Of a stretch of 64,000 nt of DNA, positions 598 to 59,938 are shown piece by piece (position 1 is the first letter of the stretch; every line of letters starts with the position of its first letter). The DNA comes from Phlyctochytrium arcticum. Lineage: Eukaryota; Chytridiomycota; Chytridiomycetes; Chytridiales; Chytridiaceae. A program made the position numbers and the translations under genes. The notes beneath the pieces were generated by a model. The model was not told the DNA's origin. It did no database searches and saw only the letters and a list, made by a program, of their open reading frames with translations. The stretch is from assembly GCA_025602905.1 (NCBI GenBank), contig JAHLKI010000022.1, forward strand, positions 248,001 through 312,000. The letters are read 5' to 3'.

Positions 598-3406
598 ATG
601 CCCAAAGGAGCTGCGAGAGGGGGCAACGAAGGCGGGATAGACGTTGAGGACTTTGATGGCTTCCAGTCAAGCTTATTTTCTGCCTTGGCACAGCTTGCCC
701 GAGCCTCACAACCTTTGAAACCAGCCGATCTATCCTTTTACAAGTCATTGTCGCCAACGTTCACGCAGCGGTTGCAGAGTTCAAGTGATAAACTTCTCGG
801 TGTTTGCAACAGAGTCTTCAATCATGCAGCAGCTGCTGGGACTTCGTCATCCTCGACCAAAGAGGCGGCGAACTTTCAAGACTCCGACGACTTGGTTGAC
901 GACTTTGATTTAGTCGTAGATGTCGTTGATAGTTTGTTGGAGAAGGCGGTGCGTCTTCCGCAAAAGTTATTTCACTGCTATCCGACTAATTTTGGTGTTT
1001 ATCACAGGACACATGCATGGATGAGGTCACTGGTAGAATCAAGAAGAATGCTCCAGACAGTGTTCCGGGGCAATCAGCACCAGTAATGTTACAGGTTTCG
1101 GCCGGTGGCCCTGGGTCTGCCAAAGGTGGAAAGAGCAGCTTCAACGTCGTTGCAGCACAAAACATCGTTCGGCCGCAACTAAGGTTCGAGGATAAAGTTG
1201 ACAATTCCAATCGACCCCATGAGCGCAAGATTACCTTCAAACCGAATGCAAAGGTCCCCTTGGAAACTGCAACGCAAAGCATGTCAGACAAGCCTAGTGC
1301 AGAGCTTATAGAGTCCAGGTACAGTTTAACTTCGCAGCTTTAATGGAAGCTTCGTCCTAACGCTGCTTGCAGTCTACCACACGCCTACGAGCATGAAATC
1401 CGCACTATTGAATACCCTGAATCGATGTTTAAGATCCGGCCAGAGCAGCTGTACGCGAGCATGGATCAAACACCGTGCACATGGGTTGACACCGAGGAGA
1501 AGCTTTTACAAATGGCGACTCTGCTTGATTCTGCTGAAGAAATTGCTATCGACACGGAACATCATGATTACCGCTCTTTTCAAGGATTTGTTTGTTTGAT
1601 TCAAGTGTCCACTCGCAACGAAGATTTCTTGATCGACGCTTTAGCCCTTCGAAATCATTTGCATGTCTTGAATTCCTGCTTTACCAATCCGAATATCGTC
1701 AAAGTTCTTCATGGAGCAGAAATGGACATTGTATGGTTGCAAAAGGATTTCGGATTGTATATTGTCAATCTTTTTGACACATATCATGCATCGCATATGC
1801 TGGAAATGTCTCAACATGGATTGGCATTCCTTTTGAAGTATTACTGCAGTGTCGAAACAAACAAGGCTTACCAACTGGCAGACTGGCGGATTCGGCCTCT
1901 ACCAACAGAAATGCTGAAGTACGCGCGAAGTGACACTCACTATCTACTCTATGTATATGATCGGATGCGAAACGAGCTTCTTACATTGTCCAACCCGGAA
2001 ACTCATAATCTGATGCACGCCACATTAGAACGATCACAGCAAACATCCCTCAACAAGTACGAAAAGGACGTTTACGACCTGGAGAATGGACACGGTCCGA
2101 ACGGGTGGAGAAATGCTCTCCGGAAGTTTGGAGGAACGCTTAGCGCCAAGCAATTCGCGGTTTTCCGTGCTATTCATGCTTGGCGTGACCACACAGCCCG
2201 TGAGGAAGACGAATCTCAACGCTATGTTCTTCCAAACCATATGCTTTACACATTAGCTGACCGTATGCCAATTGACGCTCAGGGCGTTCTTGGCTGCTGC
2301 CACCCTGTGCCCCCTTTGGTTCGACTTCACGCAACAGATATTGCTATTATCATAGATAATACGCTTGTGGAAGTGACTCGAGCAAAGGAAACGATGGAGG
2401 CCCAGTTGAAGCAAGTACGGGAAGAGATGGCTCAACGGGAACGAGAATGGCAAGAAAGGAAGCTGAAGGGACCTGTGCACAAGCGCTTTACTGATGGTGA
2501 CGAGGATGAAAACAAAGTACAAGATTCGGATCAATTCTCGTTCCAGGGAAAGCCATCCAGTGCAAAAGTCGCGATTAACACAACATCTTCCTTATTTGGT
2601 TCCACTCCTTTCAACGTTCCTGAGGGGCAATCGACAGCGCCAAAGATAACACGCGTCGCGGTCACCAATCACTCGATTTTCGGTGGTGGCAGGGCAGAAA
2701 AGGTGAACGCGGCAGACGAAGATGCTGCTCGGGAAATGATGGAGCGCATCAGGAGAACATTATACTTGGTAGCACCATCCACCGATTTGCTGAAACGCAA
2801 GCGCCCTGCAGAACCTGAAGCTTCTTCTAATTCTGTCCCCATGGAAGTATCAACAAATGCCCCAGATGAGGATATCAGCGATATCTCCAGCGATAGTCCG
2901 TCAAATGGCAATTCTCCGGAACCAATGCAACAGTCAGATGCTGTTGACCCCGTCGCAGCGGGAACGGATACCATTACCATTGGTGATGAAAACATCTCTA
3001 TTATCAAGACAACAGGTTCCACGCTCAGTAAAAAGCGGAAATCAAAGAAGAAGAAGACCGGTGCATCTGCCGCCTCCGGCACTGCAACTGCAGAGGAGAT
3101 TGCACAAGCCCGTCAGGACGTGGACGACGTCATGGAAGTGATCATGATTGAGAGTGGTGATGAGGACGGCGGCGACAAGCGCAAAAAGCAGCAGGCCTCC
3201 AAACGCTTGGCTGCGAAGGCCAAGAAGAATAACGCCGGGCGCTTTAACCCACATGGACCCCTGGATGAAGATCCACTGGTATGTTGTGTGCTCGAAAAGC
3301 TGTCCTTCTTCTGCATACTAATCCTTCGTCTGATCAGCTCAAGAAAAAGCCACCTCGGCCAACCAACAAGCCCCTTTCAGGGAATAAGAGCGGCACATTC
3401 AAGTAG
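598..3406 (+). CDS. RRP6: Exosome component RRP6/EXOSC10, 3'-5' exoribonuclease
   Basis: Four exons (598-948, 1008-1318, 1373-3278, 3338-3406) join to about 878 residues, close to the size of human EXOSC10. RRP6 is the nuclear DEDD-Y exonuclease of the RNA exosome and trims or degrades rRNA, snRNA and snoRNA precursors and aberrant transcripts. Visible in order: an N-terminal PMC2NT-like region (about residues 15-110), which in the family binds the Rrp47 cofactor; the exonuclease core with AIDTEHH near residue 280, GAEMDIVWLQKDF, and the YARSDTHYLLYVYD motif carrying the catalytic Tyr and Asp; an HRDC domain at about 460-550; then a long charged, lysine-rich tail with an SKKRKSKKKK stretch suited to nuclear localisation. 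All four DEDD acidic positions appear intact. The last exon encodes only LKKKPPRPTNKPLSGNKSG and a few more residues. Confidence 0.95.
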
Positions 3407-11840: not shown

Positions 11841-12703
11841 ATGGCCGGCTCAAGACTTCCGGCTGAGATACTAGCGAACATGCGGGCAGGATCGCCAACG
11901 ACGACCGTAAAACATTCTTGGCTCTGAGCTCCGTATCCCATACTTGGCATCAACTTTCCCAACCAATCTTGTACCGCTCCATTTACTTGCTGGACTCTCC
12001 TCGGATTCCCTCTCAACTTCAGCTGCTATTAAAAACCTTCCGAAAAAAACTGCATCTGGCGAGTTTCGTTCGAGAGTTAAAGGTCACAAGTGGGAGGACT
12101 ATCAGGAAGGTGATCAACAACTTTATGCAGAAATAGCGAGCCTAGCAAGTCTGTGTCCAAATCTGTAGGTTTGCCGGCTGTTCACTCGAAAACTTAAGTT
12201 GACCCAATCCTTTTAGTACGAGGCTTGATCTTGCTGGTACTTACTGGATTCAAGGCCCTGATTTGCTGGGTATCCTGGAAAAGTGCAAATCATTAGAAGA
12301 ACTGTCTATAGCCAGTTGCTATAAAATCTGCAAGAGCTTCATCAAGGCCTTGCCCTTCCTGAAAAATTTACGAAAGCTGGATCTCTACGACATGCCCGAT
12401 TTTGACATTGATTGTTATTGTGAGATCGCCAAAATGTGCCCATTACTGGAATACCTAGACTTGGGGCGCATGGGTCGCGGGCAAACCGAAGTACTTGCCA
12501 TCATGGCTCTTGCTACCAACTTGAAGTTCCTCGATCTGTCGGACTGCAGTGAGGAGATAACCCCTTCCGACATGAGAGATATCCTAAAGGAGAGGCCATC
12601 GCATCTCTCAATTGTCGTCTCTGACTGGGAATACAACTACGGGGATCTTTCAAGCGATGGTAGTCCCGTTGAGGGTTTGGTTGGTTCTGCAGAATTGCGA
12701 TGA
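11841..12703 (+). pseudogene. F-box/leucine-rich-repeat protein gene, copy 1, frame-broken
   Basis: The start MAGSRLPAEILANM reads as the beginning of an F-box. The continuation (GRIANDDRKTFLALSSVSHT, then HQLSQPILYRSIYL) is in a different frame, with the shift near 11881. A second shift is needed before YAEIASLASLCPNL near 12120. After an intron (12165-12216, gtaggt to ttttag) a clean LRR exon encodes TRLDLAGTYWIQGPDLLGIL and then repeats KCKSLEELSIASC, MCPLLEYLDLGRM and LATNLKFLDLSDC, with a stop at 12703. F-box/LRR proteins are substrate receptors of SCF ubiquitin ligases. The two frame changes suggest a pseudogene. Sequencing error or unrecognised tiny introns remain possible. Confidence 0.6.
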
Positions 12704-13260
12704 TTGTGGGTCGGGACAGGGCACTGTCTAGTTGTCTTGCCATGGGCATTTAAGGTGTAATTAGGTATAGATAGTATTCATCAATGTGTAAACTTTTAGG
12801 AGCGTGCGATGTATCGGAGATGGCAGGGTTTGTGCCAAAAGCGGATGGACAGATGTATGGGAACACTGTGGGAACATTGTCAAGGAAGGTGTTGCACAGA
12901 TCGTCGGAGATGTATGCAATTTTCTCACGGCAATTGCTACACGGCCTTGTGGTGATCCAGGAAGCTATACAAGATACATCTGCCGTGTGACCAGAACTGG
13001 AAGTTATCTTGGTTGTCTCTACTGCGCTTTGGATGTCTTGGGTAGACACTATAGATATTTATATAAAGGACAGCAATGCCCGACTACGAATTAGAAGTTT
13101 TATCGTCTGTCACCGTGAGCTTGCGACGATCGCGTGGAAGTTTTCGATACTCCGTCTTGAAATGGTCGACTCCAAGACTCCAGTTCGACGTCAAAACCTT
13201 GCTCTCTGTGAGGTCTGCATCTCATTTTTGAAATCAACTTGCCACATTGCCCCTGTATAG
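12704..13260. other. Stretch without a convincing gene
   Basis: Between F-box copies 1 and 2 no conserved protein is seen. Short open frames exist on both strands without recognisable domains or consistent splice sites. The region probably contains the decayed 5' part of F-box copy 2. Confidence 0.5.
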
Positions 13261-13838
13261 GTACCGCTCTCGACTTACGCTGGCACATAAAACGCTCGCA
13301 AACAAATCCAGAACTGGCAAAATTCGTTCATGTGCACGACTTTATCCGCCGCATGATGCGGAAGTTGCTAGGCTAGTAAGCATATTCCCTAATCTGTAAG
13401 TCTACCAGCTCCATATTTGCAAACTTGAGTTGACCCAATCTTTTTAGCACGAGGCTTCATTTGACATGCTGTGGGTCGATGAACGACCAGAATTTGCACG
13501 CCATCGTGGAAAAGTGCAAATCATGAGGAGGACTGTCTATAACCTCTTGCTACAACATCACCAGCACGGGCATCATCAACATCTTGCCCTTCTTGAAAAA
13601 TGTGCGAAAGCTCGATTTTTTTCAGGTCTTCCAACTTCGTGATGATTGTCTTGGGGACATCGCCAAAATGTGCCCACTGCTGGAAGATCTAGAGTTATCG
13701 ACCACAGGCGTCACGCGAGCCGGAGTATCTTCCATCATGAAACTTGCTACCAACTTGACGACTCTTAATATGATGAAAGATAGGGGAATTAGTAGTTCGG
13801 ACATGGGAGCTATTTTGCTGCTATTATAAAAAAAAAAA
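13261..13838 (+). pseudogene. F-box/LRR gene copy 2, degenerate
   Basis: The reading LYPPHDAEVARLVSIFPNL ends at an intron (gtaagt at about 13397 to ttttag near 13446). LRR-like sequence then follows, with a frame break at about 13524 (cattatt-equivalent replaced by tcatgagg). The downstream repeat block (LPFLKNVRKLDFFQVF, MCPLLEDLELS) ends prematurely in a poly-A run at 13828-13840 where copy 3 has EEKPP. It is a near-duplicate of copy 3 at 16.7-17.3 kb but lacks about 45 bp upstream of the shared ACGACTTTATCCGCC point and is more damaged. Probably nonfunctional. Confidence 0.6.
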
Positions 13839-13960
13839 GCCACCGCATGTCACAATTACCCGTCATGACCGTTATGACAGTTTGTAGGATATTCCCGATG
13901 ACTTTTGGTAGTAGCGACGAAGGTTTGGATATATTCTTGCGAACTGCCATGGATGTGGTC
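13330..13960 (+). repeat. Segmental duplication, left copy (partner 16735-17350)
   Basis: From cgactttatccgccgcatga onward the two segments align almost base for base through the intron, the LRR exon and the downstream tail (ggtttggatatattctt). Small indels separate them. The left copy is the more decayed. Confidence 0.75.
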
Positions 13961-14059
13961 GATAATCACCAAAAATGAATGTGTATTTTCAACGTAAAGT
14001 AAAAGTATGAACAGAGACAGAGTCTGAGAGACTCAAAGAGCATTTTATCGTTGTTACCA

Positions 14060-15577
14060 CTAACGCTCACGTTTGCGTCCGCGCTCTACGGGCAGCAAGT
14101 CGTGACGCTTGAAGAGGACGGGTTCGTCTAATTCAGCGTCCCCCAGCGAATCATCCTTCCATCGGTCCCGGATGCTTTGCAGGCTTCGACGCTTCAACGT
14201 AGATGATTGTCTTCCTCTCAGTTCACGAGAATGAACAGTTCCTTCCTTGTGCGTCTCAACCGCTGTGTCAGCGTCGCCAGGTTCGGCCGGTGCTATAGGT
14301 TGCCAAGAGAACTGCCCGGGCATGGATAAACGGGGTGCACTGAGATGGTGTTTTAGCGAACGCATTCGAAGGGCATCACCAACGTTTTTTGCCATTGTGG
14401 CTGCCGGTGTTAGGATGGAATCTGAGGAAGATTTCGGGCCCAAGTCTTTGATGCGGTAGCCATGGGTGTAGAACTCGCCATAAACATTTGTGACCGGTAC
14501 GATTCGGCCCGATGGGCCTGATGCAATTTCAGGGGTTCGGCGACAAGGCTCTTCGCGAGGAGGGAGAAGGAATTTTACAAACCCACTGTGAAGCCGCATC
14601 ATTGCTTCAGCGGTCCAAGCCAATACAATGGGAGGAGCAGATATTCGGAGGGCACTGCGGAGCGCTGGGTCCATGAGAGAGTGGATGAGACGGCGGGCGA
14701 GGGGTAAGATGTAAGGGTGAGCCGATTTGAAGGGGAGTGTGTCGATAAAGAGGTCAATGGCAGCTGCAGCGAGTTCGGCTGATGAAGCGCTGCTCCCAGA
14801 GTGCTTCGCTTCAAATGCCTGTAGATAGCTCGGTTACTTGCACCGTCCATGACATGGCTGGAGATGAGTCCGTACCTGTGCAAACTCTTCCATCTCTTCA
14901 AAACTCGCAGGAATATTTTGTATCCCCATATGCGTGCCAATGGCTTTCCAAACCTCGAAATGGGCCTACCAAAGCAATAGAGATTAGCTGACTTCAGCTT
15001 GCTCGAACCATCACCCAAAGTAATCACCTCCTTCTCTCTCGGTGCCAAGGATCGATAACCCCACCTCTCCACTAATCGACATGGCTCTACTACGAGAACT
15101 GACAAAACGTAGCAGTATTCGTCGTTCGTAAGCCGATACATGCTCCGGATCGCTCGCGCTCGTTCCATTGCTTGTTGAGCACGCGGATGTGTCAGAGGTC
15201 GCTCAGTCATCTCTCGTACAAGCAAATCCGTATCCTCCGTGCCCCTCGCAAAATCCGCATCGTCCTTTTTCGAAGATGCGATAGATTTCGCTATGGAAGG
15301 AATCGCAAATGCCTTGATCATTCCAAAATGAAAGGCCTGTATAAATATAAACTGTCAGTGGGAGCTCATGCAGTGACATTAACGAGGCCAATACCATCCG
15401 TGACAAAAACGGGAATTCATATTCCCAAGTCTTCTCGTAAGTTACAAACGCAGCTTCGGGCGAAGCCTGCGGATCCGGTCCTTGCAGAATCTCTGTGAGG
15501 GTATCATGTCGCTTTCCTCGCACCCAATAAAGGTAGGAGGATGCCGCCCAGCCAAAGGGCATGAGAACAGGAATCAT
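14060..15577 (-). CDS. ER-bound oxygenase mpaB/rubber-oxygenase-type (DUF2236) protein
   Basis: Minus strand, at least four exons, starting MIPVLMPFGWAASSYLYW at 15577. That start fits a membrane-anchored N-terminus. The core matches the mpaB/MpaB' and latex-clearing-protein oxygenase fold: ARGTEDTDLLVREM, then ARAIRSMYRLTNDEYCYVLS, VEPCRLVERWGYRSLAPREK, a helix with MGIQNIPASFEEMEEF-like sequence, and a C-terminal AEAMMRLHSGFVKFLLPP. Characterised members are haem-dependent oxygenases, including the mycophenolic-acid pathway enzyme MpaB'. Here the substrate is unknown and no biosynthetic cluster surrounds the gene. Frame-preserving introns of 50-90 nt lie near 15000-14940, 14860-14800 and 15350. 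A truncated copy of this gene's 5' end sits at about 17.5-17.7 kb. Confidence 0.75.
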
Positions 15578-16620
15578 GGTCAACCAAGCGTGTCACACTG
15601 ATTCCGTGGTTAGTCTGGGAGTTGTTCGAATTGAGCTTTTGAAGTTGGGTGAATATAACAAGGAAGAATAACGGAAAAGAAAATAGTATTTGCTTCGCAG
15701 TTTGGAGCTGAACGAAAAGTGACAGAAAGCGCCCCTTGCAGTGTCACGGCCAGCTGACAAGGGTCGGGCCAGGGCATTTTTCTATAAAAGTTCCAAATTT
15801 TTCAGGCCGAAATCTGAGAGATTGAGTCTCACACCCCAGCGATCACCCAGCAACTCCTCAATAGATCACATCAAAGCAAAAGAAGTTGTCCAAGGTAGCT
15901 AATGGCGAACGCCGCAACATGGCCTGCCGCACACGCGTTGAGCACACTGCGATGAACCTCCACAAACTGGACCACCCTACAGGACGAACAGTGCGACAAT
16001 AGGCCGATACACTCAGTACACTCAAATTCATTGGACATCATGTTTCAGCAGAGTTCAGTGAAATCCTGATTACTGGCGGGCATTCGAGGGGCCATACCAC
16101 CTATCATGAGGTTGCAACACATAGAACAGATAACATCATTGTTCAACCCAATTCAAGGTGAATGGACTGCAGAATACGGCCATTTACAGAGATTGAGTGT
16201 CGTAGCCCGGAACATAGCTCGTCCATCGGCCACCCACCGACCCGAAGTTAGACGAATCGTAGGCCTTTGTAAGTTGCAGCATATCAACATTCCAGTTCGT
16301 TACGTAAATAGCGACCGGCCCTTGCGATATGATCAACCGATCTTCGAGTACAATGGGTCCATGCTCACCCCCGTTGTCCCAACCCAACTAACGTGCAAAC
16401 GAAATCGCACCGAACTCCGGATCTTGTCTGCAAAGTCCTATGCCACAGTCAAGGGAATCCAATGACAAATAATAGAACGTTAGCGTTATCACGGTTGAGT
16501 ATGCGATGCTTTCGCGAGGTTTATCTCTTGAAAGCAAGATCTCTGCGACATGCATACGTCCTCTACGCGAGACCCTTTGCCCTTACGCTGGGGTGAGACC
16601 GCAACATTTGTCACAACACA
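15578..16620. other. About 1 kb with no recognised gene
   Basis: A TATA-like tataaaa lies at about 15784, and a 119-codon plus-strand frame (16106-16465) shows no recognisable domain. Nothing else is supported. It separates the mpaB-like gene from F-box/LRR copy 3. Confidence 0.5.
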
Positions 16621-17302
16621 GATCTGATGGACGTTCTTGGGCGTGTTGTGGGTCCTGTACGAACAACCCTGGCAAGATTCGTTCAGGAGGTGAAGCACAC
16701 AGCTAATGGCAGCTATTTGTCCGTCGGTTGTGGACGACTTTATCCGCCGCATGATGCGGAAGTTGCTAGGCTAGTAAGCATATTCCCTAATCTGTAAGTC
16801 TACCAGCTCCATATTTGAAAACTGGAGTTGACCCAATCCTTTTAGCACGAGGCTTAATTTGACATACTGTGGGTCGATGGAAGACCAGAATTTGCACGCC
16901 ATCGTGGAAAAGTGCAGATCATTAGAAGAACTGTCTATAACAACTTGCGACAACATCACAAGCACGGGTATCATCAACATCTTGCCCTTCTTGAAAAATC
17001 TGCGACAGCTCGATCGTTTTGATGTCCTCAACCTTGGTGATGATTGTCTTGGTGACATCGCCAGAATGTGCCCACTGCTGGAACATCTAGACTTATCAGG
17101 CACACGCGTTACGCGCACCGGAGTATCTTCTATCATGAATCTCGCTACCAACTTGACGACTCTTAATATGATGAAAGATAGGGGAATTAGTAGTTCGGAC
17201 ATGGGAGCTATCATGGAAGAGAAGCCACCGCATGTCACAATTACCCACCATGACCGTTATGACATTTACGCGGATATTGGCCCTGATGCGTTTTTCTGGT
17301 AA
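16621..17302 (+). pseudogene. F-box/LRR gene copy 3, 5'-truncated with intact LRR exon
   Basis: An upstream exon reads RFVQEVKHTANGSYLSVGCG then RLYPPHDAEVARLVSIFPNL up to a donor at about 16795. After the intron (to ttttag, 16844) the frame stays open through LNLTYCGSMEDQNLHAIVEK, RSLEELSITTCDNITSTG, NLRQLDRFDVL, MCPLLEHLDLSGTRVTRTG and NLTTLNMMKDRGISSSDMGA to a stop at 17302. This is an array of LRR units of the F-box/AMN1 type. No F-box start is found upstream, so it is either truncated or its first exon is unrecognised. It is the best preserved of the three copies. Confidence 0.55.
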
Positions 17303-17350
17303 CGACGAAGGTTTGGATATATTCTTACGAACTGCCATGGGTGTGGTGGA
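16735..17350 (+). repeat. Segmental duplication, right copy (partner 13330-13960)
   Basis: Same orientation as the left copy, with the same intron and exon layout. Similarity continues past the LRR stop into shared 3' flank (gtttggatatattctt, cgaactgccatgg). Confidence 0.75.
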
Positions 17351-38417: not shown

Positions 38418-38425
38418 GCGCCAGG
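38418..38425. repeat. Left target-site duplication of MULE B / whole composite
   Basis: The 8 bases gcgccagg abut the outer terminus ggcggctgcc and recur directly after the right outer terminus at 45103-45110. A 9-bp version (cgcgccagg) works if the right terminus has lost its last base. Confidence 0.85.
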
Positions 38426-38466
38426 GGCGGCTGCCAAATCTCCACGGGTCTTCATGCCATTTCTCC
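38426..38466 (-). mobile_element. Detached 41-bp 3' terminus of MULE B
   Basis: Begins ggcggctgccaaatctccac and carries the cttcatgcc variant diagnostic of the element's 3' terminal repeat. At its right edge it is interrupted by element A, with catttctcc (38458-38466) duplicated on the other side of A at 41801-41809. Confidence 0.9.
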
Positions 38467-38668
38467 GGCGGCTGCCAAATCTCCACGGGTCTTCTTGCCA
38501 TTTCTCCACCCCCTGTCATGGTGACTCACAAAGCCCCTTTGTAAAGTGGGTTCACAGCCACTTGCCCGGACAAAAGTCCGACAATCTTTGGCTCAGATCC
38601 ATTTTACCCTCCCTTGCTTGCAAATACTCCTTTAGCAAGCAACGTCCCACACAAACTCGATAAAAGAT

Positions 38669-41462
38669 ATGTCCTCCAACAGCACCCAGTCTGAGGATGT
38701 CTATAATGCCATGCTCGCATTAATAGATGAGCATAATGAAGCCAGCAGAAAGCTATCACAGAGGATGACAGACCTGATGGCTTTAACCCCGGTTACTCCA
38801 ACTCTCATGCAAACAGCGTTGCGGGCGGTACAGCCTGTGGGTCATAGGGCTCCTACTTCGTCTGAGGGTAACTTTACACCCTTGAAGCCAATGATGAACC
38901 ATGGAAAATCTCATGCGCCCAATTGTTTACTTACAGCAGAAATCAGTATTGGGTTGAACGCTACCGACGAGGCTCACAACGACTCGACCAATACACAGCC
39001 TAGTGGTCAAATTCAGCTTGGAGGTAAAGTATTCCTCTTCAATGTTTGTTGGTCATCAAGCTCATTTGGCTCATTGTCATCCTAGAACCCCATATCGGCT
39101 TGAACGACGACGGCGAGAATGCCACTTCAAACGATGCGGAAGATGACGGGAGGCTTGATGACCAGTCAGTTTTGAACAGTTCTGGAGATGCCACGACTTC
39201 TGATGGTATGATTGCGCCCAAAGACAGTAAAGGTTCACACGCTTAAATAAACCTTGTTTGCGCAGCATGGACCCCGCCCCTCCCTCCTTCCGGTCCATTT
39301 GCCACCGCAGAGGAAGCAGATCATGCTTTGAAGCAGTTTGCCATCGACAACGGATTTGCTATCGCGAACCTAAGGGAGCAACGCGTTTCTGGGCCAGGAA
39401 GCGCAGTTCACAAAATCTGGCGCCCCTGCGCATGCCACGGCGAGTATAAGCCTAAGGACCAAGGTGTGCCACTGTGCAAAAAGGGGAGCAAAAAGACCGG
39501 TTGCGGCTATATGGCAATTCTGAAGGGTGTAGTGAACAAAGGGGTTGTGGGAGAATGGTCAATCAAATTGTCCGATACCGTGGGCTCAGGAACCCATACG
39601 GGACACATGCAGTTGACAATGGCGGGGTTGAAGACTATGTTTCAAGCTCGGCGTTTTACCCAAAATCCTACTGTGTCCCGGGAAATCCAAAATATGATCG
39701 AGGCGGGCACAAAACCGCGAGAGATCTTGGCTACCATCAACAAGCACACGTCTCGGCCATTGGTGACGATCAAAGAAATCACGAATCAAAACTCGAAAAC
39801 CATGGAAAACATACTGCAGGGACGTTCTCCCTTGACAGCACTGCTCGACACCCTTTCCCAGTCTGTGGAGCAAGGTGTTGTTACAGACGTGGTCCAGAAT
39901 GAAGAGAATGTCTTGACTCACCTTTTCTTTCAAACTGATGTGAGTTCGATGGCTCAAAACCTTGTCTTATTTTCTTTTAATCCTCGTGGCATCTAGCGGG
40001 AGATGGCAAAGCTTTTAGAAAAGTTTGGCGATGTTCTCATAATGGACTGTACGTACCGGACAAACCGGCACAGAATGCCGCTTCTCCACGTCGTGGGAAT
40101 CACCGACACCTTTCATTCCTTTTCCGGCGCGTTTATGCTGATGGCAAACGAAACGACTGAAGATTATAAGATTGCGCTTGATCGTCTGACAGCTTCGCTG
40201 CCAAAGCCACCACACGTCGTTGTCATTGATTGCGACACCGCCTTCATTGCAGCCGTGAAAGCTCAGTGGCCTAATACGAAGATCATCCTGTGCCGATGGC
40301 ACTTGTGGCAGAATATAAAAAAACATTGCCAGAAGAATTTCGTTGACGACGACGAGAAGCATGATGCAGAAGCATTCTCCGAATTCAAAGAGTAGGTTCT
40401 ATATTCCAATGCTCATAACCTGTGATTGCTCAGATATTTCAATATAGGGCATGGATGGAACTGGAAAGCGCTACTACAGAGGAAAGCTTTTTTCAACTCT
40501 GGGAACAGATGGAGAAGGACATTGACAAGGCAACGTTCGCCTATCTGGAAAAGAACAAGATGCCCTTACGCCAACATTGGGCCAGCGTGTTTATCGATAA
40601 ACATCAACATTTGAATGCAACTGTGACTTCGCGCGTCGAAGGAAAGCACTGGGCTTCTATCAAGTCCAACGGCTCTGCCAACTCCACCATCTTCACGTTG
40701 TATCAAACTATCAAAAGAAATTGCGACCAGCAGATGGCGAATTATCAGGCTGCTGTCGTTGCAAACTCGAACACCATCCACCGCTTTCTCACCGAAGATG
40801 ATATACAAGAAAAGCAGAAAAAAAGATTCATAACCCGTGTCAAAGTCAAGCCTTTCTACTCGGAAGTTAATCAACGCCTTTCTTTGCACATACTCACCAT
40901 TCTTGACCAAGAACGAATCAAGGCAGATAGGATTGTCAAAGCCAATGATCCTAACACTGTTTTGAGCGAAGGGTCATTGGTCCTGAAACCATGCACCTCA
41001 TGGCATAGAACAGTCATGGGTATGCCGTGTGCGCATGAGATATTAGCTATGCGGAGAGAGGATCGTGGATTGAAGATGAGTGATTTCACTTCAAGATGGC
41101 ATCTGCAGCCAGTCACCGCCAGCTCGGAGGTGCTTGAACCTCCAGTCGGTCGCTTTACCAATTCTACGCATGGGCGTGGGAATAAAAGGCTGCGGACATC
41201 GGCAGAGATCGCAGAAAGCCAGCTGCAAGCGAGCCAACGACACTGTGGAGTGTGCCAGGCACGTGGGCATGACAGAACGCAATGTCCGTCTGCTCTTGTA
41301 GCTACGCAAGCCGCGCAAACAATTTTCGACGATATTTCCGACTTGAACGTCCCCGCACCTGGAAGCAGCTCAGAGGCACCACGCAAAATTCGGGCTGCAC
41401 CGCGATGCTCCGGTTGTGGGTCGTCGGGCGACACTTACAAGAGTTGTGCAGCAAAAAACTGA
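38669..41462 (+). CDS. MULE transposase of element A (FAR1/MULE domain, SWIM and zinc knuckles)
   Basis: Six exons (38669-38867, 38937-39023, 39086-39205, 39266-39939, 39997-40391, 40448-41462) join in frame to about 829 residues. The N-terminus is helical and acidic. A FAR1/WRKY-GCM1-like DNA-binding zinc domain follows (WRPCACHGEYKP, GCGYMAILKG, GTHTGH). The MULE catalytic domain has DVLIMDCTYRT (first Asp), VVVIDCDTAF (second Asp), the C-x2-H signature ILCRWHLWQNI, and a Glu-rich helix after it (FQLWEQMEKD). A SWIM-like motif appears at CTSWHRTVMGMPCAHEI. The end carries two cysteine motifs, a CCHC knuckle CGVCQARGHDRTQCP and CSGCGSSGDTYKSC. These proteins cut and paste the element by binding its terminal repeats. 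All frames are open. Confidence 0.9.
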
Positions 41463-41769
41463 TTTTTCCTTTTACATCTATCTTTTGTCTACAATTACAT
41501 TTCCGTTCCGGTATCGCCAGTATTCTCCTGGCATTTTCAGCAGTTTTCTTGAAGCATTTGACCCAAGCAAGCATGCTCTATATAGATGGTGAACATGCTA
41601 TGTTTGCTCCGTATACCCGTGTAGTGAGCGGGGGGCAACCAGGCAACTAACCAGGCAATACCGGGCACTGCGCCAGGCCTGGGGCCAGGCAAGCACGGCC
41701 GCAAGTGGCTGTGCACTCCATGAAAAACCATGCCAACAACGGACGTGACTCATAGGGGTGGAGAAATGG

Positions 41770-41799
41770 CATGAAGACCCGTGGAGATTTGGCAGCCGC
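41770..41799. other. 30-nt asymmetric centre of the giant palindrome
   Basis: Left arm 38467-41769 and right arm 41800-45102 (3,303 bp each) are reverse complements. The 30 bases between them are the outer part of element A's 3' terminal repeat, which has no counterpart because B was interrupted there. Confidence 0.85.
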
Positions 41800-41800
41800 C

Positions 41801-44800
41801 CATTTCTCCACCCCTATGAGTCACGTCCGTTGTTGGCATGGTTTTTCATGGAGTGCACAGCCACTTGCGGCCGTGCTTGCCTGGCCCCAGGCCTGGCGCA
41901 GTGCCCGGTATTGCCTGGTTAGTTGCCTGGTTGCCCCCCGCTCACTACACGGGTATACGGAGCAAACATAGCATGTTCACCATCTATATAGAGCATGCTT
42001 GCTTGGGTCAAATGCTTCAAGAAAACTGCTGAAAATGCCAGGAGAATACTGGCGATACCGGAACGGAAATGTAATTGTAGACAAAAGATAGATGTAAAAG
42101 GAAAAATCAGTTTTTTGCTGCACAACTCTTGTAAGTGTCGCCCGACGACCCACAACCGGAGCATCGCGGTGCAGCCCGAATTTTGCGTGGTGCCTCTGAG
42201 CTGCTTCCAGGTGCGGGGACGTTCAAGTCGGAAATATCGTCGAAAATTGTTTGCGCGGCTTGCGTAGCTACAAGAGCAGACGGACATTGCGTTCTGTCAT
42301 GCCCACGTGCCTGGCACACTCCACAGTGTCGTTGGCTCGCTTGCAGCTGGCTTTCTGCGATCTCTGCCGATGTCCGCAGCCTTTTATTCCCACGCCCATG
42401 CGTAGAATTGGTAAAGCGACCGACTGGAGGTTCAAGCACCTCCGAGCTGGCGGTGACTGGCTGCAGATGCCATCTTGAAGTGAAATCACTCATCTTCAAT
42501 CCACGATCCTCTCTCCGCATAGCTAATATCTCATGCGCACACGGCATACCCATGACTGTTCTATGCCATGAGGTGCATGGTTTCAGGACCAATGACCCTT
42601 CGCTCAAAACAGTGTTAGGATCATTGGCTTTGACAATCCTATCTGCCTTGATTCGTTCTTGGTCAAGAATGGTGAGTATGTGCAAAGAAAGGCGTTGATT
42701 AACTTCCGAGTAGAAAGGCTTGACTTTGACACGGGTTATGAATCTTTTTTTCTGCTTTTCTTGTATATCATCTTCGGTGAGAAAGCGGTGGATGGTGTTC
42801 GAGTTTGCAACGACAGCAGCCTGATAATTCGCCATCTGCTGGTCGCAATTTCTTTTGATAGTTTGATACAACGTGAAGATGGTGGAGTTGGCAGAGCCGT
42901 TGGACTTGATAGAAGCCCAGTGCTTTCCTTCGACGCGCGAAGTCACAGTTGCATTCAAATGTTGATGTTTATCGATAAACACGCTGGCCCAATGTTGGCG
43001 TAAGGGCATCTTGTTCTTTTCCAGATAGGCGAACGTTGCCTTGTCAATGTCCTTCTCCATCTGTTCCCAGAGTTGAAAAAAGCTTTCCTCTGTAGTAGCG
43101 CTTTCCAGTTCCATCCATGCCCTATATTGAAATATCTGAGCAATCACAGGTTATGAGCATTGGAATATAGAACCTACTCTTTGAATTCGGAGAATGCTTC
43201 TGCATCATGCTTCTCGTCGTCGTCAACGAAATTCTTCTGGCAATGTTTTTTTATATTCTGCCACAAGTGCCATCGGCACAGGATGATCTTCGTATTAGGC
43301 CACTGAGCTTTCACGGCTGCAATGAAGGCGGTGTCGCAATCAATGACAACGACGTGTGGTGGCTTTGGCAGCGAAGCTGTCAGACGATCAAGCGCAATCT
43401 TATAATCTTCAGTCGTTTCGTTTGCCATCAGCATAAACGCGCCGGAAAAGGAATGAAAGGTGTCGGTGATTCCCACGACGTGGAGAAGCGGCATTCTGTG
43501 CCGGTTTGTCCGGTACGTACAGTCCATTATGAGAACATCGCCAAACTTTTCTAAAAGCTTTGCCATCTCCCGCTAGATGCCACGAGGATTAAAAGAAAAT
43601 AAGACAAGGTTTTGAGCCATCGAACTCACATCAGTTTGAAAGAAAAGGTGAGTCAAGACATTCTCTTCATTCTGGACCACGTCTGTAACAACACCTTGCT
43701 CCACAGACTGGGAAAGGGTGTCGAGCAGTGCTGTCAAGGGAGAACGTCCCTGCAGTATGTTTTCCATGGTTTTCGAGTTTTGATTCGTGATTTCTTTGAT
43801 CGTCACCAATGGCCGAGACGTGTGCTTGTTGATGGTAGCCAAGATCTCTCGCGGTTTTGTGCCCGCCTCGATCATATTTTGGATTTCCCGGGACACAGTA
43901 GGATTTTGGGTAAAACGCCGAGCTTGAAACATAGTCTTCAACCCCGCCATTGTCAACTGCATGTGTCCCGTATGGGTTCCTGAGCCCACGGTATCGGACA
44001 ATTTGATTGACCATTCTCCCACAACCCCTTTGTTCACTACACCCTTCAGAATTGCCATATAGCCGCAACCGGTCTTTTTGCTCCCCTTTTTGCACAGTGG
44101 CACACCTTGGTCCTTAGGCTTATACTCGCCGTGGCATGCGCAGGGGCGCCAGATTTTGTGAACTGCGCTTCCTGGCCCAGAAACGCGTTGCTCCCTTAGG
44201 TTCGCGATAGCAAATCCGTTGTCGATGGCAAACTGCTTCAAAGCATGATCTGCTTCCTCTGCGGTGGCAAATGGACCGGAAGGAGGGAGGGGCGGGGTCC
44301 ATGCTGCGCAAACAAGGTTTATTTAAGCGTGTGAACCTTTACTGTCTTTGGGCGCAATCATACCATCAGAAGTCGTGGCATCTCCAGAACTGTTCAAAAC
44401 TGACTGGTCATCAAGCCTCCCGTCATCTTCCGCATCGTTTGAAGTGGCATTCTCGCCGTCGTCGTTCAAGCCGATATGGGGTTCTAGGATGACAATGAGC
44501 CAAATGAGCTTGATGACCAACAAACATTGAAGAGGAATACTTTACCTCCAAGCTGAATTTGACCACTAGGCTGTGTATTGGTCGAGTCGTTGTGAGCCTC
44601 GTCGGTAGCGTTCAACCCAATACTGATTTCTGCTGTAAGTAAACAATTGGGCGCATGAGATTTTCCATGGTTCATCATTGGCTTCAAGGGTGTAAAGTTA
44701 CCCTCAGACGAAGTAGGAGCCCTATGACCCACAGGCTGTACCGCCCGCAACGCTGTTTGCATGAGAGTTGGAGTAACCGGGGTTAAAGCCATCAGGTCTG

Positions 44801-45102
44801 TCATCCTCTGTGATAGCTTTCTGCTGGCTTCATTATGCTCATCTATTAATGCGAGCATGGCATTATAGACATCCTCAGACTGGGTGCTGTTGGAGGACAT
44901 ATCTTTTATCGAGTTTGTGTGGGACGTTGCTTGCTAAAGGAGTATTTGCAAGCAAGGGAGGGTAAAATGGATCTGAGCCAAAGATTGTCGGACTTTTGTC
45001 CGGGCAAGTGGCTGTGAACCCACTTTACAAAGGGGCTTTGTGAGTCACCATGACAGGGGGTGGAGAAATGGCAAGAAGACCCGTGGAGATTTGGCAGCCG
45101 CC
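41801..45102 (-). mobile_element. MULE element B, main part (3' end split off by element A)
   Basis: Opposite orientation to A. Bases 41810-45102 (3,293 bp) plus the 41-bp piece at 38426-38466 reconstruct exactly 3,334 bp, the length of A. Bases 41801-41809 are the duplicated target. It ends at 45102 with ggcagccgcc and the 5'-type cttcttgcc variant (read on the minus strand). The element is interrupted only in its 3' terminal repeat, so its transposase gene is untouched. Confidence 0.93.
42107..44900 (-). CDS. MULE transposase of element B
   Basis: Mirror image of the element A gene. Every exon translates to the same residues as far as inspected, including the catalytic DVLIMDCTYRT and VVVIDCDTAF, the C-x2-H motif, the SWIM-like segment and both terminal zinc knuckles. 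It has the same six-exon layout, about 829 residues. It is convergent with the copy in A: the two stop codons face each other across 644 bp (41463-42106), so read-through transcription from either side would yield antisense of the other copy. Confidence 0.9.
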
Positions 45103-45110
45103 GCGCCAGG
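45103..45110. repeat. Right target-site duplication of MULE B / composite
   Basis: Direct repeat gcgccagg matching 38418-38425. Confidence 0.85.
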
Positions 45111-56574: not shown

Positions 56575-59500
56575 GGCGGCTGCCAAATCTCCACCACCAA
56601 AATCCTATTTCTCCACCCCCTGACTCATACCGGCCTCTCACAAAGTGTTTGCACAGCCACTTGCCCGGACAAAAGTCCGACAATTGTTGCCCCAGATCCA
56701 TTTTTGCCCTTCCTTGCCCACAAACACTCCCCTCACAGTAACGACACTCTTTAGTAGCCCAATATAAAAAATGTCCAGCAGCAACCCTCCATCCGAAAAT
56801 GTCCTCAAGGCCATGCAAGCGCTCATGGAGGAAAATAACAGAATGATGGCCCAGAAGTTCGCGGAATTGATGGCATTGACGCAGGTAACGCCGACTATGA
56901 TGCAGAAGGCCTTGCGAGTAGTACAACCTGTGGATCATGGCAGTCCAGATCTCTCTGATGGTAGCTTGAAATATCGTTCAGTAGTTCATATATCCTTACA
57001 GAAATCTCATAAATCAATTGTTTATGTTCAGCAGAAACTGTTACTGGATTGAGCCCGACCAGTGAAATCCAAAACAATTCTGAGTGTGTGCATCAATTCG
57101 AAGGTATGTATTTTTTACCCTATCACTTTATTTAAGTCTAATGTACCTCATTGCAGGCGCAGATACCAGTATCGGCATTACCGAGGTCGGCTTACATGGC
57201 AATTCCAGCGATGCCGCGGCACACAACGGTCAGTTGGGCAATCAGGTAGTCATGGATGAACTTCAAGATTCCCCAACCTCCGATGGTATGATAATATTGA
57301 AGACGAAATGGTTCATACGATGATAAGACATCTTTTGCGCAGCATGGACTCCCCCACCTCCGCCCTCGGGCCCATTCGCGACATCTGAGGAAGCCGATTT
57401 TGCTTTGAAGCAGTTTGCTATGGACAACGGATTTGCCATTTCAAACTTGAGAGAAAAGCGCGTTGGTGGGCCTAACACCCCAGTGCACAAATTGTGGCGC
57501 CCCTGCGCATGCTATGGGGAGTATAGACCAAAAGACGAAGGCGTTCCACTGCGCAACAAGGGAAGCAAAAAGTCAGGTTGCACGTATATGGCAATTCTGA
57601 AGGGTGCAGTCAAGGACGGCCTTGTGGGAGAGTGGACGATCATTTTCGGCAACGGCTCTGGCGCGGGCACTCACACCGGTCATCCGCAATTGACGAGGGA
57701 GGGTTTGCGATCTATGTTTCAAGCGCGACGCTTTACTCAGAACAGCTCTGTTGCCCACGACATCGATACCATGATCAAAGCAGGAACTAAGCCGCGTAAA
57801 ATCATGGCGACCATCAAGGACCATACGTCGTCTCCCATGATTGTTGTTAAAGAAATCGGCAATCGGAAGGCGAAAAGAATGGACGATATACTGCAAGGTC
57901 GCTCTCCCCTCGCAGCCCTCCTAGATCATCTTGCGGAAATGGTTGACCAAGGGGTTGTAACTGATGTGATTCAAAATGAGGAAAATGTTCTCACGCAGTT
58001 GTTTTTTCAAACGGATGTGAGTTTGTCATGCCAGCAGCTTCATTTGTGCTTGTTGTAACACTCCTCGTCTACAGCAATACATGGCGGAGCTTTTGACAAA
58101 GTTTGGTGATGTGCTTATTATGGATTGCACATACCGGACTTATCGGCACAAGTTACCTCTTCTCCACGTCGCGGGAATAACGAACACGTCCCACACGTTT
58201 TCGGGCGCGTTCATGCTAATGGCAGGCGAAACCACCGAAGACTACCAGCTTGCAATTGACAGGATAACAGCATCACTCCCGAAAGCCCCAGCCGTCGTTG
58301 TCATCGATTGCGATACTGCGTTTGTTGGAGCTGTGAAGAGTCGGTGGCCCAACACAAAAATCATACTTTGCGGATGGCATTTATGGCAAAACATTAAAAA
58401 GAATTGCCAAAAGAACTTTGTTGACGCTGACAAAAAGCATGATGCAGAAGCATTTGCCATCTTCAAAGAGTGAGTTTTACTGCGCTTTGTAATTCTCACA
58501 CCGGTACCTAGGGATAGTTCTAATCTTTTGTTATAGGGCCTGGGAGGAACTGGAAAATGCTACCACCGAAGAAGAGTTCAAGGAACTTTGGGAACAGATG
58601 GAGAGAGACGTGGATAAGGCAACAATTGCCTATTTGGAAAAAAATAAGCTCCCGCTCCGTCAACACTGGTCCAGCATTTATATCGACAAGCATCAGCACT
58701 TGAATACCACTGTGACTTCTCGTGTGGAAGGAGCGCACTGGAATGCCATCAAAGATGATGGTTCTGCTAATGCCACCATCTACACCCTCTATACAACCAT
58801 CAGAGACAAATGCGCCGCACAGATGGCCAATTACCGAACCGAAGCGACCTCTGATGCCCTTATTCAACATCGCTTTCTCCTTCAAGACGATCCCAACCAA
58901 AAGAAAAAGAGCAAGAAGCGAGCGAAACCAACTGTCATGATTAAGCCTTCCTATGCGGATGTCAACAAGCGACTCCCTTTACATATCCTTCACATGGTGG
59001 ATAAAGAGCGGATCAAGGCTGACAGAATTGTCAAAGCAAACGATCCTAACACTATTTTAAGTGAAGGGTCATTGGTTCTGAAACCCTGTACCTCATGGCA
59101 TAGAACTGTCATGGGTGTGCCGTGTTCGCATGAAATATTGGAGATGCAGAAGCAGGATCGTGGACTGAAAATGAGTGACTTCATTGAAAGTTGGCATCTG
59201 CCGCCGGTTGCCGCAGGTTCGGAGGTGCGCGAGCCGGCTCTTGGTCGCTTTGTGAAAAACACGCATAAGCGTGGGAACAAACGCGCGAAGACAACGGCAG
59301 AAATTGCTGAAAGCCAATTGCTTGCGAGTCAGCAGCAATGTGGGGTGTGTCACGAGCGCGGGCATGACCGTTCGCAGTGCCCTATTGCCTTTTTAGAAAC
59401 CCAAGTGTACTCGGATGATTTCCTCTCCGACACGGACATGGCCAGCCCAGCCGCGGCTTTGGAGACTGCAACCCCCAGTAGTTCACCGGAGACATCACTG

Positions 59501-59938
59501 CCCCTAGTTCCACTACCCATAGTCCGAGCCGTAAGGAAATGTAGTGGCTGCGGTTCGGCCTCCCACACTTATTGGAAATGCCCATTGAGAAAGTAATTAT
59601 CGGTTCAAATTTTCACTCTTCTTCCAAGATCTTGCCTATCTTATAAATTTGTTGTTTGCTATCACATAAAGTCCGTTTTATCTTTCCAATATACATGTCT
59701 TCCGCTATTACATGAGATCGTCTGTCGACCTCATCAAAAGCTCCCACAAGGGTCCTGTCTCTATGAGCTTCCTCACAAGTTTGTTCACAAGCTGCTTCAG
59801 AAGCTGTTCACAAGCAGGTTCACAAAAGCTGTCACAAAAGAGGTGAGGACGAGTGGCTGTGCAAACACTTTGTGAGAGGCAGGTATGAGTCAGGGGGTGG
59901 AGAAATAGGATTTTGGTGGTGGAGATTTGGCAGCCGCC
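56575..59938 (+). mobile_element. MULE element C, diverged relative of A/B, 3,364 bp
   Basis: Starts ggcggctgccaaatctccac and ends with the same 10-base terminus as A and B. Its two ends match each other very closely for roughly 95-100 bp, a longer and cleaner terminal repeat than in A. The outer 20 bp are shared with A/B, then the sequence diverges (caccaaaatcctatttctcc against gggtcttcttgccatttctcc). The inner subterminal block cacagccacttgcccggaca is conserved. A perfect 9-bp direct repeat borders it. It encodes a related transposase. Towards the 3' end, short ttcacaagct-type repeats occur at 59770-59840. Confidence 0.93.
56771..59596 (+). CDS. MULE transposase of element C
   Basis: Same domain order as the A/B protein but clearly diverged. 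The start is MSSSNPPSENVLKAMQALME. The zinc domain has WRPCACYGEYRP, GCTYMAILKG and GTHTGH. The catalytic domain has DVLIMDCTYRT, VVVIDCDTAF and ILCGWHLWQNI (C-x2-H retained, Arg to Gly between them). SWIM-like CTSWHRTVMGVPCSHEI and the knuckle CGVCHERGHDRSQCP follow, then CSGCGSASHTYWKCP. At least six exons match the A/B layout. Introns near 56962-57034, 57102-57156, 57285-57343, 58016-58077 and 58470-58537 keep it open to the stop at 59596. No disabling mutation was seen, so the enzyme may be active. Confidence 0.88.

Follow-up and report, generated by a model that had tools for sequence, protein, structure and literature searches.

How did a 6.7-kb palindrome come to lie in the genome of the chytrid Phlyctochytrium arcticum? 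The sequence analysed (the window) is a stretch of 64,000 nt on contig C22 (445,938 bases), and the genome searched comprises 31.48 Mb in 91 contigs. As set out below, the palindrome very probably consists of a Mutator-like element inserted into one terminal repeat of an identical, inverted copy, the inserted element having been made from that copy or a recent sibling, with a landing site that would follow an end preference of the family.

Two identical elements in opposite orientation

Base-by-base comparison revealed two 3303-nt arms (38467-41769 and 41800-45102) that are exact reverse complements around a 30-nt centre, the match extending one further base on each side (38466/45103). The arms resolve into two elements. 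Element A, a complete Mutator-like element of 3334 bp on the forward strand (38467..41800), lies within element B, which runs on the reverse strand and is severed by A into the terminal 41 bp at its 3′ side (38426..38466, the exact reverse complement of 41760-41800) and the other 3293 bp including its 5′ end (41810..45102, identical to A reversed at 3293/3293 positions). The arm geometry and element coordinates given in the initial annotation all hold on this alignment. The same annotation described the palindrome as near-perfect; the palindrome stands and the qualifier falls, as all 3334 of 3334 bases are equal between A and the reverse complement of B.

Element A ends in terminal inverted repeats of 46 bp (5′, 38467..38512, forward strand; 3′, 41755..41800, reverse strand) that agree at 45 of 46 positions (98%), and the 5′ repeat of B occupies 45057..45102 on the reverse strand. 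At position 29 the 5′ repeat has T and the 3′ repeat has A, in agreement with the earlier report of end-specific variants, and this difference is found in A, B and the near-identical copies L002, L004, L005 and L006. With up to three mismatches allowed, a 28-nt terminal motif occurs at four sites in the window, against a mean of 0 in 100 shuffles. A slippage duplication of 41 bp in the window was rejected as an explanation because the extra copy carries the 3′-end variant (A at position 29), unlike the 5′ end that it adjoins.

Two 3.3-kb inverted arms around a 30-nt centre would also be the appearance of a foldback-type element, with the arms as its long terminal repeats. We give this reading hardly any credence: each arm makes up an entire element, with 46-bp ends, a transposase frame and a duplication of its own, and single copies of the ~3.3-kb unit with 46-bp ends lie elsewhere in the genome, on which ground a foldback element was rejected. 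Further palindromic copies were absent from the matches listed.

Assignment to the Mutator-like elements

The transposase frame of A (39250..41462, forward strand) contains two predicted GT-AG introns (39940-39996 and 40392-40447), the splicing of which leaves 699 aa open from the putative start at 39250; B carries the mirror image (42107..44319, reverse strand) with identical ORF translations. Within this frame, 40003-40395 matches the MULE transposase domain PF10551 (Pfam; E 1.1e-23, 83.9 bits, cut-off 27.6). Among Pfam zinc-finger domains, neither SWIM nor FAR1 was matched in the A frames, which do match the SWIM-family RNaseH-like model PF21056, and the Pfam scan of the A protein listed no hAT (Ac/Ds) transposase. 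Searching with the 699-aa protein returned eight matches, the best in the oomycete Peronosclerospora sorghi (57% over 32% of the query) and the second in Rhizophagus irregularis (32% over 43%). That the best protein relative lies in P. sorghi may be noted separately as a possible horizontal transfer.

Assignment of A and B to the Mutator-like elements is supported by the MULE domain, the 46-bp terminal inverted repeats and the family's 8-9 bp target duplications, which fall in the 8-11 bp range given for MULEs (PMC6446971). Elements of this superfamily, whose groups are treated in the same paper, share these features with the pair described here, which differs in its chytrid host and in being nested as a perfect palindrome; the word "chytrid" is absent from the main text of PMC6446971.

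Target duplications and the order of insertion

The initial annotation placed CATTTCTCC on both sides of A, and this 9-bp duplication is present at 38458..38466, as part of the terminal repeat of B, and at 41801..41809 (both forward strand). B in turn is flanked by the 8-bp duplication GCGCCAGG (38418..38425 and 45103..45110, forward strand). Because the inner duplication lies inside the terminal repeat of B and the outer one in host DNA, A was inserted in B; mispairing the ends in the window (the 41 bp with A, or A with the rest of B) yields 0 bp of duplication. Element ends were taken as GGCGGC...GCCGCC and are corroborated by family insertions at unrelated sites. So delimited, 10 of 12 elements compared, with A and B as one entry each, show an exact duplication, of 9 bp for A, element C and those on C3, C5 and C49 and of 8 bp for B and those on C6, C14, C16 and C21; C3b has 9 bp with one mismatch and C10 none. 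Moving the right edge by one base would give duplications of 10 bp (A) and 9 bp (B).

A perfect inverted repeat can be an artefact of a well-known type, and the palindrome here is one of assembled sequence. An origin in a fold-back read or a mis-join during assembly is nonetheless very improbable: the two outer flanks differ from each other, and the junctions coincide with element ends, where the inner and the outer duplication are both typical of the family; a fold-back would mirror its flank and yield no such duplications. Between the outer end of B and the likely start codon of a mannose-6-phosphate isomerase gene that follows it are 154 bp; on the left side of B, the adjoining 225 bp match only themselves in the genome. 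Three frames scanned for a gene left of the nest gave no Pfam family above the cut-off and one sub-threshold match. Elsewhere in the window (12125-17350), diverged direct repeats with spacings of 1.2 and 3.4 kb and 72-92% identity perhaps represent a tandemly duplicated gene.

The extra terminal repeat standing in tandem outside the element recalls plant MULEs with tandem ends, in which the outer ends are flanked by a duplication and the inner ends are without one (PMC3310237). For that reason its authors argue against nested insertion, leave nested insertion with loss of the inner duplication as one possible origin, and state that how the tandem ends became duplicated is not clear to them (PMC3310237). 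The inner element in the window, in contrast, has its own duplication, and nesting is therefore the cause of the tandem end here. An outer duplication without an inner one is seen neither in the window, where the inner one is present, nor at the C10 locus described below, where both are missing.

Age of the pair and the proposed history

The genome search listed 72 matches, and 40 of 51 candidates were scored. Among the matches listed, the near-identical full copies are A, B, L002, L004, L005 and L006; L007 is 84% identical, and the remainder are more distant or partial. One related element, element C (56575..59938, forward strand), lies in the window 11 kb away from the nest and outside it, with 69% identity over the first 2844 bases of A and the 9-bp duplication GCTCTTTGC. 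A disrupted relative on contig C1 (L017, L018) was considered as another self-nest and dismissed, as the stretches examined contain no such junction.

Four substitutions, at element positions 668, 2878, 2964 and 3205, are common to A and B and absent from L002, L004, L005 and L006. At 668, 2878 and 2964 the outgroup L007 sides with the latter four copies, at 3205 with A and B. By alignment count, L002 has 8 substitutions against the rest, L004 none, L005 7 and L006 15, plus small indels, with one substitution common to L005 and L006 included in their counts. Had A and B been apart as long as the near-identical copies, zero differences between them would have a probability of ~3e-7 by a rough Poisson estimate. 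The lack of differences, given the divergence among copies, points either to a very recent split, with A derived from B or a sibling, or to later homogenisation of the arms by conversion. Conversion could explain the arm identity and would leave the time of insertion unfixed.

Geometry, both duplications, identity and family membership are directly observed; the source of A and the end preference of its family are inferred parts of the following history. B would have come first, duplicating 8 bp of host DNA on entry. An ordinary transposition would then have placed A, in reverse orientation, in the 3′ terminal repeat of B, duplicating 9 bp there and leaving the last 41 bp of B on the far side of A. 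The source of A may have been B itself, for example a sister-chromatid copy, or a sibling of very recent date; where A landed may reflect a preference of the family for transposon ends. The initial annotation had proposed self-insertion of a Mutator-type element; the Mutator type and the insertion of A into B are borne out, and strict self-insertion, with A made from B, is likely, short of proof, since a lost sibling donor or later arm conversion also fits the four shared substitutions. Speaking against one recent self-insertion as the whole account is a 41-bp nest at the same base on C10 that lacks the private substitutions.

Maize double Ds provides a known configuration in which an element lies inverted within a copy of itself. 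The pair in the window is likewise an element inside a reversed copy of itself; double Ds belongs to the hAT family, whereas the pair here is of Mutator type, with no hAT signature. Chromosome breakage is a known feature of maize double Ds; as a sign of breakage, the C10 junction is suggestive only. Double Ds is named in PMC3260210, and among coding-MULEs, 9% in maize and 7% in rice lie inside other elements (PMC3903597). A literature search on P. arcticum transposons listed no paper, and among the titles and abstract openings listed for self-insertion and terminal-repeat insertion no such case was recognised.

A second nested end on contig C10

On contig C10 (892844-896208, L004), a 41-bp 3′ end adjoins a full element of 3324 bp. 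The junction CATTTCTCCGGCGGCTGCC occurs at exactly two sites in 31.5 Mb, the window and C10:892876-892894; 12 of the 14 matches in the junction search have three mismatches, and a reversed control gave nine matches. The right side of the C10 nest is the repeat R1 (described below), beginning 71 bp inward of its end, and the left side is 10 bp followed by a different repeat. There is no target duplication at either the inner or the outer level, and the element is without the four private substitutions of the window.

Plain transposition of a 41-bp end plus element was rejected for C10 because the duplication is absent at both levels, as was descent from A of the window because the four substitutions are missing, although such descent could be masked by a crossover within bases 1-667. 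To judge from its sequence, C10 may have arisen as a nest of its own and been rearranged, or may be a derivative that moved. Its structure would fit recombination between two copies, alternative transposition from a nested pair, or mis-assembly. A comparable choice, between ectopic recombination and aberrant transposition, is weighed in PMC2775673.

C10 also bears on a different history of the palindrome, in which an old nest, formed perhaps elsewhere, later moved as a 6.7-kb composite by means of the outer ends of B, gene conversion keeps its arms identical, and C10 is a co-descendant. Good terminal repeats and an 8-bp duplication also delimit the composite as a whole (38426-45102), and the fact that the 41-bp junction is found exactly twice accords with such a history. 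We regard it as unlikely: conversion would have had to carry all four private substitutions into each of the arms, with C10 having none of them, and the matches listed (40 of 51 candidates scored) include no further composite. Insertion of A into B at the present site remains the preferred reading.

A possible preference for transposon ends

The sequence CTCAGCGCAACCC has 108 sites in the genome, compared with 2 for a reversed control, and is frequently paired ~3.5 kb apart. It marks the ends of a second repeat, R1, a presumed DNA transposon of ~3.5 kb with inverted ends. R1 has a frame of at least 504 aa, a Pfam scan of which gave no match.

Of the 39 termini of the A/B family, four (L005, L007, L002 and C49) are separated from an exact R1 end by 10-24 bp, inside the 75-bp limit applied, and 35 of 39 are not near one (P for at least four termini 5.7e-9, in a post hoc test of a pattern already seen in the flanks). 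Counted per element, with A left out, 4 of 19 are near an R1 end (P 2.7e-10); both tests used sites among 100 of the 108, with three element edges approximate. Among the first 47 match places three touch an R1 end, and the C49 match starts inside its element. L007 lies just outside the end of R1, not within it. The element at C14:584066 is a formal miss: its insertion itself split the R1-end 13-mer, so that AGCGCAACC of R1's end is duplicated around the element and the R1 end continues beyond. C10 is also a formal miss, yet adjoins R1. C3c and C61 each stand 10,005 bp from an R1 end and probably represent a single locus that was duplicated; the elements in the R1 count are thus not all independent. 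At five further sites searched with joined 100-base flanks, those on C5, C6, C14 (at 704374) and of element C match only themselves, and C16 lies in a low-copy repeat, ~37 bp from the start of the shared part.

Several neighbouring observations concern R1. The 10,005-bp R1/MULE spacing shared by C3 near 1.32-1.35 Mb and C61 could represent a segmental duplication or an alternative haplotype, and on C61 the distance between the MULE termini is 4.9 kb, versus 3.3 kb. Two R1 copies on C67 and C39 (L056, L059) contain, 71 bp inward of the end, a stretch of ~2.8 kb that includes a MULE-domain frame; these inserts are apparently bounded by CCGACCTGG and are perhaps another MULE in the R1 end.

Since relatives lie in or at R1 ends, the landing of A in its own family's end may be a target preference rather than chance. 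A sequence motif as the determinant was set aside as weak: by a weight matrix built on four other 9-bp duplications, and thus on four words, CATTTCTCC is not a favourable target, as 34% of positions in B score at least as high. The bacterial IS4321/IS5075 elements target the ends of Tn21-type transposons. They resemble the present family in entering the terminal inverted repeats of another transposon and differ in having an unrelated recombinase; here, moreover, positions within the R1 end vary. A broader reading, which we hold tentatively and at somewhat less than an even chance, is that the family targets transposon ends, its own and those of R1, that 41-bp self-nesting recurs, and that a nested pair, whose ends stand in direct order (38426/38467 and 41800/45102), rearranges by alternative transposition, with C10 as one product.

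Implications

The initial annotation rested on one window, in which neither the C10 nest nor the copies at R1 ends are visible. Comparison across the genome contributes that second nest, shows that A and B have a recent origin in common, and suggests that the family may favour transposon ends. With an exact nested pair, the order of insertion can be read from sequence alone. If the end preference is true, the family would be a eukaryotic case of a transposon that uses the ends of others as targets, and would offer a simple origin for tandem-ended elements and for transposon-made palindromes.
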